Source: Bifidobacterium sp. 7101 (GTDB lineage: Bacteria > Actinomycetota > Actinomycetes > Actinomycetales > Bifidobacteriaceae). Taken from it: a DNA stretch of 64,000 nt. Made by a program: the position numbers and the translations under genes. Within the stretch, counting starts at the first letter, position 1; every line of letters begins with the position of its first letter. The notes beneath the pieces are model-generated. The model ran no database searches. It had not been told where the DNA came from and saw only the letters and a list, made by a program, of their open reading frames with translations. The stretch is from NCBI RefSeq assembly GCF_000499285.1, contig NZ_AWUN01000002.1, positions 186,001 through 250,000 of the forward strand, read 5' to 3'. Of this stretch, positions 52,770 through 54,777 are shown piece after piece.

Positions 52770-52849
52770 GCATGCCTAAATCCTCCCAAATTGCGTCTGC
52801 CCGTCTACGATTACGAATTGCGGGTGCGCGCGCAAGGGCAGGAGCGGCT

Positions 52850-53296
52850 ATGACTTTCTATACGTACCAATACCTCAAGGGCGGGCAGACCAATTGGACC
52901 ATGATCAGGATCATCGTGGTCGTCGTTCTGGCCCTGGCCTTCCTCTTCTTCCTGTTTATGTACTCCCGCCATCGCTGGAACCATAAGTACAAGGATCTGT
53001 CCATCATCCTGGCCACCCTGCTCCTCTTGGCTGCAGCCATCCAGTACAGCGACTACACCAATCTGCGCACGGCCAGTCTGCAGAGCGGCCAGCTGACCAC
53101 GGTCATCGACAAGTCGGCAGCCAAGCTCAAGGTCAATCCTGAGCAGATCAGCATCAACGACACCTCGCGCAACAACGACATGATCATCAAGACCCCCAAA
53201 GGCTACTACACCCTGGTATTCAACAGCTCCGGCTCAGAGTTCCTGCTGCAGCGCGCAGACCTGTACCACCCAGACATCACCGTGATCGGAGAGTGA
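52850..53296 (+). CDS. DUF3290 family membrane protein
   Basis: 148 residues. Two transmembrane helices (about 19-42, MIRIIVVVVLALAFLFFLFM, and 53-68, IILATLLLLAAAIQY), then a small extracytoplasmic/soluble domain with DTSRNNDMIIKTPKGYYTLV. The protein matches DUF3290, which in other bacteria is found next to DUF421 genes, as here (3 bases between stop and start). ATG 52850 has AGGAG seven bases upstream. The function is unknown. Confidence 0.82.
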   Translation: MTFYTYQYLKGGQTNWTMIRIIVVVVLALAFLFFLFMYSRHRWNHKYKDLSIILATLLLLAAAIQYSDYTNLRTASLQSGQLTTVIDKSAAKLKVNPEQISINDTSRNNDMIIKTPKGYYTLVFNSSGSEFLLQRADLYHPDITVIGE

Positions 53297-53299
53297 CCC

Positions 53300-53944
53300 A
53301 TGGATATCAATTTCTACGTCAACGTGGCCCTGAAGCTGATCGTCGGGCTTCTCTTCATCACCCTGCTCATCAATGTGACCGGCAAGGGGAACCTGGCGCC
53401 CACCTCGCCCATGGACCAGCTGCAGAACTACGTCCTGGGCGGCATCATCGGCGGGGTCATCTACAGCGACAGCATCTCCATGGCCCAGTACATTGTCATC
53501 CTGCTGATATGGGCGGCGCTGATTCTCATCACCCGGTACGCCAAGACCCACATCCACGCGGTGGGCAAGTACATCGACGGCGAACCGGTCACCATCATCA
53601 AGAACGGCAAGCTGCTGGTCCAGAACTGCCTCAAGGTCAACCTGACGGCCAAGGAGGTGGACTTCAAGCTGCGCACCAAGGGCATCAATGACATCCGCGA
53701 CGTCAAGCGGGGCATCGTTGAGCAGAACGGCGGCCTGACCATCATCTCCGAGGGCGACAAGGACGTGCGCTACCCGGTGGTCATGGACGGGCGGGTCAAT
53801 CCCGACGTTCTTGACACCATGGGACGGGACGAGGACTGGCTCGACGAGCAGCTGGCCAAGCAGGGCATACACAAGGTCAGCGATGTGTACATGGCCCGAT
53901 ACCAGAATGGCGAGTTCTACGCCGTCACCTACCAGGACCAGTAG
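53300..53944 (+). CDS. DUF421 family (YetF-like) membrane protein
   Basis: 214 residues. About three transmembrane helices in the first 85 residues (including LIVGLLFITLLINVTGK and YIVILLIWAALILITRYAK), followed by the conserved DUF421 cytosolic or surface domain: KYIDGEPVTIIKNGKLLVQN and LTAKEVDFKLRTKGINDI. Relatives in Bacillus (YetF, YdfS, YrbG) are spore- or envelope-related, with no known enzymatic role. Translationally linked to the DUF3290 gene; the two probably form one membrane complex. Confidence 0.88.
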   Translation: MDINFYVNVALKLIVGLLFITLLINVTGKGNLAPTSPMDQLQNYVLGGIIGGVIYSDSISMAQYIVILLIWAALILITRYAKTHIHAVGKYIDGEPVTIIKNGKLLVQNCLKVNLTAKEVDFKLRTKGINDIRDVKRGIVEQNGGLTIISEGDKDVRYPVVMDGRVNPDVLDTMGRDEDWLDEQLAKQGIHKVSDVYMARYQNGEFYAVTYQDQ

Positions 53945-54022
53945 CGCGCTATAGACGCGATCTGAAGCATCCTGTCGGTAACCAAGGCTCATTGAGCAGG
54001 GTCATCCGGCTTCATGTCATGC

Positions 54023-54051
54023 TTGATTGTTCCAGCGCTGACAGGTAAAAT
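54023..54051 (+). promoter_or_regulatory. Promoter of mntP
   Basis: TTGATT (54023-54028) and TAAAAT (54046-54051) with exactly 17 bases between them. The expected start of transcription is near 54058, giving a leader of about 155 bases. Confidence 0.6.
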
Positions 54052-54057
54052 CTATGT

Positions 54058-54213
54058 CCATATTGTTTTGGCGTAGCATGTGAACGGCATTCAACGAATT
54101 CAAAGCCGACTCCAATCGGCAGTTCCGCGCTCGACGCTCCCGAGGCGTAGGCGGGTTTGAGGAGACCTGGTCGAGGCCCATCCCAGCGGGGATGAACCCT
54201 TTCGAGGAATGCC
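54058..54213 (+). ncRNA. Structured 5' leader of mntP, candidate metal-sensing riboswitch
   Basis: A closing stem ACGGCATTC (54084-54092) with GAATGCCGT (54207-54215) encloses several hairpins: GCCGA/TCGGC (54105-54109 with 54116-54120); CCGC/GCGG (54125-54128 with 54151-54154) stacked on ACGC/GCGT (54134-54137 with 54145-54148); CATCCC/GGGATG (54179-54184 with 54189-54194). The 3' side of the closing stem covers the bases between ribosome-binding site and GTG and part of the GTG itself, so the fold would block translation. Genes for MntP are commonly under yybP-ykoY manganese riboswitches. I did not find that consensus here, so it may be a divergent member or a different class. Confidence 0.6.
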
Positions 54214-54777
54214 GTGTTCTTGAGATTGTTGTTTATCGCTTTAGGTGTATCTTCTGACGCTTTTGCCGTCTCCATCAGCAAAGGACTGTCCGTGGACCGG
54301 CTGCGGGCCCGCCATCATTGGCTGGTCGGACTTTGGTTCGGCGGATTCCAGACTCTGCTGCCCCTGCTGGGCTACTTCACCGCCTCCATGCTGCAGGACT
54401 CCCTGGCCGCCGTGGATCACTGGATTATCTTCGGCATCCTTTCAGTCATCGGGGTCAACATGATCCGCGAGGGCGTCTATGGCGAGGAAGAAGGAGCGAG
54501 GGGCGAGGAGGGCTTCTCCTGGCGTCAGATGCTCCCTGCAGCCATCGCCACCAGCATCGACTCATTCGGCGTGGGCGCAGGCCTGGCCCTGCTGGGCATC
54601 AACATCTGGCTGTCCGCACTGGTCATCGGGCTGGTGACGGCGGCAGCCTCCATTCTGGGACTGCGCATCGGATACGCGGTCGGGTCCCGCTGGCGCAAGC
54701 CTGCCAGAATCGCCGGCGGCATCATTCTGATCGTCATGGGCATCCAGATCCTTTTGGATCACCTGATGAATGCCTGA
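54214..54777 (+). CDS. mntP: MntP family manganese efflux pump
   Basis: 187 residues with six transmembrane helices, the MntP (YebN) size. Seen: the repeated acidic motifs LGVSSDAFAVSISKGL in helix 1 and ATSIDSFGVGAGLALLG in the second half, carrying the Asp residues that bind Mn in this family. Start GTG 54214 with GAGG six bases upstream; the start region is part of the leader's closing stem. Expected to export Mn(II) when it is in excess. Converges with the downstream membrane-protein gene, one base between them. Confidence 0.93.
   Translation: MFLRLLFIALGVSSDAFAVSISKGLSVDRLRARHHWLVGLWFGGFQTLLPLLGYFTASMLQDSLAAVDHWIIFGILSVIGVNMIREGVYGEEEGARGEEGFSWRQMLPAAIATSIDSFGVGAGLALLGINIWLSALVIGLVTAAASILGLRIGYAVGSRWRKPARIAGGIILIVMGIQILLDHLMNA

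Follow-up and report, generated by a model that had tools for sequence, protein, structure and literature searches.

A conserved structured RNA in the mntP leader of Bifidobacteriaceae, a candidate class of Mn(II) riboswitch

The window, that is, the whole 64,000-nt stretch of DNA analysed here, comes from a genome that belongs to the Bifidobacterium asteroides group; MntP is 92–98% identical to the proteins encoded at the closest named loci (B. asteroides, B. apousia, B. mellis and others). A DUF3290 gene and then a YetF/DUF421 gene lie at 52772–53944, 5′ of the mntP leader; the YetF-type gene ends at 53944, and the gap to mntP is about 270 bases. The original prediction had placed a promoter before the leader, and a promoter-like sequence is present there, from which transcripts would be expected to start at about 54058. 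A second promoter candidate occupies 54038–54066. With either candidate the transcript start is expected to fall 5′ of 54083, and use of the second would clip the edge of the P1 stem described below. The elements around the leader are as follows:

54023..54051, + strand: promoter-like sequence TTGATT-17-TAAAAT, 9 of 12 consensus bases, kept in relatives
54204..54208, + strand: Shine–Dalgarno sequence GAGGA, read in the sequence
54214..54777, + strand: mntP, Mn efflux pump, GTG start, 187 aa, PF02659 at E 2.7e-43

The leader at about 54068–54216 is a member of a conserved structured RNA class of Bifidobacteriaceae. The structured mntP leader noticed in the original prediction is thus real, and belongs to a conserved RNA. 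In an alignment of leaders, conservation was near-perfect within the asteroides group, and short invariant words were shared with another genus (L017). A pattern of three invariant words matched 64 of the 189 Bifidobacteriaceae genomes, its reversed control none. A covariance model (R1) made from 36 leaders, using alignment A4 and a hand-drawn structure, matched 96 of the 189 genomes at E 0.01, with one match in each, in three genera. All 96 matches are on the mntP strand, 95–166 nt 5′ of the MntP domain. The training set consists of 36 of the matched leaders, most of which were gathered with a pattern that fixed 26 bases, so that the invariance of those words is in part a product of the selection; GUCGAGGCCCAU, which makes up the second half of the core, lay outside the gathering pattern and is still nearly invariant. 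An mntP gene scoring over the Pfam cut-off is present in 120 of the 189 genomes, and none of the 69 remaining genomes has an R1 match (Fisher p 2.4e-31, a value that ignores shared ancestry). Stronger than this p value is the fact that the 96 genomes contain no other R1 match anywhere, the linkage being exclusive to mntP in the genomes searched. The 24 of the 120 mntP genomes that lack an R1 match comprise 11 of the main genus, among them five whose MntP is distant, 3 of the window's genus and 10 of other genera. In the window, the gene directly 3′ of the RNA is a PF02659 gene, a predicted Mn exporter gene, as in the genomic context of the yybP-ykoY family (RF00080).

The RNA consists of a 5′ domain, closed by stem P1 and holding the hairpins P2 and P3, with P4 and P5 located 3′ of the domain:

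54068..54199, + strand: full RNA, R1 match, 100.4 bits, E 4.7e-22 (G000:C2:240068-240199, offset 186000); the sequence is in the training alignment
54136..54200, + strand: core RNA P4-P5, match of model R2, 60.3 bits (G000:C2:240136-240200, offset 186000); the sequence is in the training alignment
54071..54077, + strand: P1 5′ strand (P1 closes the conserved 5′ domain); pairs checked, covariation across leaders
54129..54137, + strand: P1 3′ strand, with a two-base bulge at 54132-54133 in the window species; covariation across leaders
54080..54095, + strand: P2 hairpin, loop CGGCA (relatives mostly CRGYA); double changes at 2 of 5 pairs
54096..54125, + strand: P3, GAAUU-CAAA-GCCG...CGGC-AGUUC, with a one-sided CAAA bulge; mainly conservation
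54144..54178, + strand: P4, core, GGC-GUA-GGC ... GUC-GAG-GCC, with a variable apical hairpin; five inner pairs near-invariant
54179..54194, + strand: P5, core, CAUCCC-AGCG-GGGAUG hairpin, followed by the conserved AACC at 54195-54198; double changes at 4 of 7 pairs

Covariation was evaluated on A6, a model-fitted alignment of 57 leaders, and on two plain MAFFT alignments, A4 (36 leaders) and A5 (the core only). In A6, double changes occur at 5 of 6 pairs of P1 (which is 84% paired), 2 of 5 of P2, 0 of 5 of outer and 1 of 3 of inner P3, 1 of 8 of P4 and 4 of 7 of P5. With shuffles that do not keep the relatedness of the leaders, this total of 13 in 34 pairs compares with a mean of 8.6 and the 63 compensating cells with 24.7, none of 500 shuffles being as high in either case; sliding the partner strand lowers pairing from 93.6% to 31–46%. 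Support is weaker on the MAFFT alignments. A4 yields 8 pairs with double changes (19 of 500 shuffles as high) and 25 compensating cells versus 12.2 shuffled (0 of 500 as high), with further pair types at shuffle level (202 of 500); the cell count is again 25 when the partner strand is shifted by +1, with pairing then at 39.3%. For the core in A5, 6 pairs have double changes, a number reached by 56 of 500 shuffles, and the 30 compensating cells (11.8 shuffled) are reached by 0 of 500; in pair types, 343 of 500 shuffles do as well. Shifting the partner strand by −1 raises the cells to 36 at a nearly equal covariation score, but lowers pairing from 91.8% to 59.5%. The double changes of P5 are found at 4 of 7 pairs in A5 as well as in A6, and those of P4 (1 of 8 pairs in A6, 2 of 10 in A5) are all at the tip, the five inner pairs being formed in 57 of 57 leaders of A6 and in 43 or 44 of the 44 of A5. 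P1, P2, P5 and the tip of P4 are therefore backed by compensating changes, whereas P3 and the base of P4 rest mainly on conservation and fit, because there is no variation at the base of P4, and in P3 it is mostly confined to one side. RNAalifold on A3 (44 leaders) gave 20 pairs, 4 of them with double changes, and a covariation term of −0.73; it missed P1, probably because the 5′ end of A3 was cut too short. The folding energy of the window leader is unremarkable (z −1.76, 11 of 200 shuffles folding as well), and by itself is insufficient to make the case. A4, A5 and A6 nevertheless show a trait of riboswitches in this mRNA leader, a structure that is conserved and in which changes compensate one another. 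The original prediction had made its stems depend on such changes; they occur, strongly in stems that it had not named and at one pair of the stem that it had. That the leader is a structured cis-regulatory RNA we regard as almost certain.

P1–P3 are missing and P4–P5 kept in 20 of the 96 genomes (G072, 083, 084, 085, 089, 092, 100, 112, 116, 121, 123, 127, 136, 137, 139, 140, 141, 142, 166 and 186), the core starting about 20 bases 3′ of a TATAAT-like box in most of the core-only leaders that were read; the other 76 have the whole of P1–P3 or recognisable parts of it. P4–P5, with its nearly invariant words GGCGUAGGC and GUCGAGGCCCAU, is therefore taken as the core and P1–P3 as accessory. As separate observations, the mntP start of the core-only leaders L111, L112, L118, L130, L132, L214, L216 and L217 often lies in a small inverted repeat in the first codons of mntP (e.g. 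ATGAT..ATCAT), which may be a chance effect of the codons, and in L102 and L106 GAGGUUCAU replaces GAGGCCCAU, so that U-A pairs take the place of two C-A oppositions. These pairs would extend P5 in competition with P4, and the change may mark an exchange between P4 and P5. AUGAAC was considered as the start of a conserved small ORF and rejected, its frame relative to mntP and the length varying.

The window leader is also predicted to adopt a second fold that shares or crosses the bases of the first. According to the original prediction, a 9-bp stem closes the leader and buries the start codon. The stem itself stood: it is part of the MFE structure and dominates the predicted fold, with a central pair probability of 0.96 in the free ensemble. 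Its closing role did not, the conserved fold being closed by P1 (54071–54077/54129–54137), and burial of the start applies to the asteroides/indicum group but not to the 43 other leaders, in which no start pairing was found. The two strands are:

54084..54092, + strand: anti-start stem, 5′ strand (A54084-C54092), an alternative pairing that overlaps P2; from the MFE structure and the P2-start duplex
54207..54215, + strand: anti-start stem, 3′ strand (G54207-T54215), covering the end of the Shine–Dalgarno sequence and the first two bases of the GTG at 54214-54216

The anti-start stem joins the 5′ strand and loop of P2 to the Shine–Dalgarno sequence and start; some of its bases belong to P2 as well, and its pairs would run across those of P1. 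Since its nine pairs are kept in all 16 asteroides/indicum-group leaders (16 of 17 alignment rows), it stands above chance. The changes seen are a G-C to A-T double change in three leaders (L018, L019 and L020, with AACAGCATT and GGAATGCTGT instead of AACGGCATT and GGAATGCCGT) and an A-T to G-T change in one, so that the stem has one compensated pair, in three related genomes. Scanning whole leaders for duplexes with the start region was uninformative, this group included, because long gapped duplexes dominate (17–75% of shuffled start regions were as good in 14 group leaders). The duplex of the P2 strand with the start averaged −16.9 kcal/mol in 12 distinct group leaders, versus −7.7 kcal/mol with shuffled starts and −16.0 with permutation (0.2% of permutations as good); these leaders had been selected for carrying TGAAC in P2 and GGAATGC ahead of the start, and so in part by a start-region word, and the permutation test was unspecific in them, segments P1b_J (0.0005) and P4P5 (0.02) also beating permutation but neither beating shuffled starts. 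In an ion-free energy model the anti-start fold reaches −59.9 kcal/mol versus −48.0 for the conserved fold, and the start-hiding stem is feasible together with P4–P5 at −58.0 kcal/mol. The modelled preference for the hidden start, about 12 kcal/mol, is a large one for an ion to reverse, unless folding during transcription plays a part.

Mutually exclusive folds, one of them hiding the start, are thus predicted in the asteroides/indicum group; in the 43 other distinct leaders, no segment clearly outdid shuffled or permuted controls in its pairing with the start region. For the main genus, the P1 3′ strand was tried as a general anti-start partner for the bases before the start and discarded, the permutation test being negative. 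As the anti-start stem competes with P1–P2, it resembles the OFF state that a translational switch would have. Found in one clade, with no segment standing out in the 43 other leaders, this start lock was apparently added to an older RNA at the level of the clade; alternatively, the other clades may have lost it. Of 77 distinct starts from all clades, 59 have no Shine–Dalgarno-like word, according to automatic start calls of which a few are plainly wrong. With this and the lack of start pairing in the 43 leaders, no expression platform common to all clades was found. Several mntP genes without the RNA do have a Shine–Dalgarno-like word when their starts are read by eye, which hints that the RNA may take part in ribosome recruitment.

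The mntP leader of E. coli is described in the accessible part of PMC11647493 as a Mn-dependent translational riboswitch. From that precedent and from the link to mntP, one can presume that the ligand in bifidobacteria would be Mn(II), and that Mn would turn the switch ON; binding would be by the P4–P5 core. A riboswitch seems likeliest because the RNA is intricate, its core near-invariant and tied to one metal exporter, and because in one clade its fold could decide access to the start. We think it probable, though well short of assured, that the leader RNA is a Mn(II) riboswitch. The wider reading, in which a conserved Bifidobacteriaceae class of cis-acting RNA controls mntP, senses Mn(II) directly and acts as a translational switch in the asteroides/indicum group, is likewise the one we favour, with reasonable but limited confidence. 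In that group, absence of the ligand would leave the P2 strand paired with the Shine–Dalgarno sequence and GTG start (OFF), and the bound ligand would hold the P1–P5 fold, locking the P2 strand in its own hairpin and freeing the start (ON), so that the exporter would be made at high Mn. The ion site would probably be in the core (GGCGUAGGC, GUCGAGGCCCAU), P1–P3 forming an accessory 5′ domain. Somewhat more tentatively, though still with the balance in its favour, we propose a second, structurally unrelated class of Mn(II) riboswitch, in which a two-stem core of about 65 nt senses and a detachable three-stem 5′ domain serves as a start lock in one clade.

It could also be that the structured leader does control mntP but is read by something other than Mn(II), be it a metabolite, a different metal or a protein that binds RNA. 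The invariant core might just as well serve as a site for a protein, and most clades have no visible expression platform. On the other hand, there is one RNA per genome, linked at E 0.01 to the Mn exporter and nothing else, and the E. coli mntP riboswitch, whose place the RNA takes, is Mn-dependent as far as the available portion of PMC11647493 goes. This reading is a serious candidate but, on balance, an unlikely one. Very improbable is a plain translation-attenuating hairpin or thermometer, with the 9-bp stem alone mattering and the rest passive: dominant as that stem is in the predicted fold of the window leader, it was seen in a single clade, while conservation of the core spans three genera, including the 20 leaders without P1–P3.

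Even less can be said for a divergent form of yybP-ykoY, which the original prediction had offered beside a new class. In yybP-ykoY riboswitches conserved docking loops form the Mn site, and RF00080 is, to our knowledge, the sole Mn-sensing RNA family known. The downstream gene is the same and the job presumably so, the bifidobacterial RNA occupying the mntP leader as yybP-ykoY does, but its stems and conserved words are others, and in the searches made it was found only in Bifidobacteriaceae. The covariance-model scan for yybP-ykoY that had been recommended with the prediction detected RF00080 neither in the leader nor anywhere else in the window genome, even at E 10; the same search found matches in 9 of 14 control genomes, two of them over the cut-off, and the 189 family genomes yielded one weak match (E 0.007, 18.1 bits) and none over the cut-off. 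The positive control, the mntP leader of E. coli K-12, matched at E 8.9e-10 and 41.6 bits; this is just below the gathering score of 45, so that a missing cut-off match alone would be uninformative, but here weak matches are missing as well. No Rfam 15 family matched window positions 53900–54300 even at E 10, nor did any match the leaders of L070, L112, L095, L106, L074 and L018 at E 1, microRNA-like matches in L112 (1036–1148) lying about 180 bases 5′ of its core; it is thus the new class that gains support. NiCo and other metal-sensing riboswitches occupy the leaders of metal transporters. They too differ from the window leader, which matched none of those in Rfam at E 10. SAM-VI of Bifidobacterium bifidum is likewise a riboswitch of bifidobacteria, but its ligand is S-adenosylmethionine, as stated in the portions available of PMC11274715 and PMC6914780, and the window leader has no Rfam match. 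A conserved DNA element or coding constraint in place of an RNA, suggested by short words of very high primary-sequence conservation, has as slight a chance, in view of the compensating double changes and of length variation that falls mostly in loops.

Outside Bifidobacteriaceae, no convincing relatives were found in two samples of 396 genomes each, one from the order and one from the phylum. R1 gave three weak matches outside the family in the order sample (24.9–27.6 bits), which were judged to be chance from their scores and from a look at the sequences. R2, run on the phylum sample, matched 153 genomes at E 0.01, the window genome included, but the E-values of this short, GC-rich model are much too optimistic: within the family it matched 108 of 189 genomes, the same 96 plus 12 in which all matches are weak, with a background of up to 26.1 bits. 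Of the 15 best R2 places in the phylum sample, 14 (22.6–29.2 bits) were read and none was convincing; on one strand, each coincides with an open frame of 232 aa or more. L236, one of the 14, has both core words but no 3′ side of P5. The exact core pattern had no match in viral contigs. No earlier description of a bifidobacterial mntP-leader RNA was found in the literature searched, which was available in part and with supplements outside the search: the accessible main texts of PMC8632094, PMC11109978 and PMC6429828 do not mention bifidobacteria, mntP, manganese or yybP, the accessible part of PMC2864571 names Bifidobacterium in a reference only, and the Mn riboswitch items in the references available from PMC10043782 are all of the RF00080 type.

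Other arrangements were seen before mntP elsewhere in the family. Three genomes of the window's genus have a different leader (L014, at about 1395–1450; L016, in G016 and G018; L015, on the reverse strand, in G015), with the common words GGGGTAGTC..TTTT.GCCTTG.AGTA.GGCT.AG.GGCTATTACT and no Rfam match; possibly this is another leader RNA. About 100–210 bases before the MntP-like gene of L021, L195, L196, L202 and L203, and more weakly of L198, lies AAGTTCGACCCCTCGAAACT, an inverted repeat (TTCGA-CCCC-TCGAA) that is perhaps a protein operator. In L189, L191, L192 and L193, of the main genus and without the RNA, a Shine–Dalgarno-like word precedes mntP, and further 5′ there is a hairpin and then a T run, suggestive of loss and replacement of the RNA.

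Twenty core-only variants and a clade-specific start lock suggest that sensor and output are separable. If the proposed Mn(II) riboswitch is confirmed, a second, unrelated Mn RNA would mean that selective recognition of Mn(II) by RNA has arisen more than once, and the chemistry of the Mn(II) site would gain a case for comparison. It would also be an independent RNA solution to Mn sensing across a whole bacterial family in which yybP-ykoY was not found, and the leader RNA offers a way into the study of metal control in bifidobacteria, for which no convincing RF00080 match was obtained.
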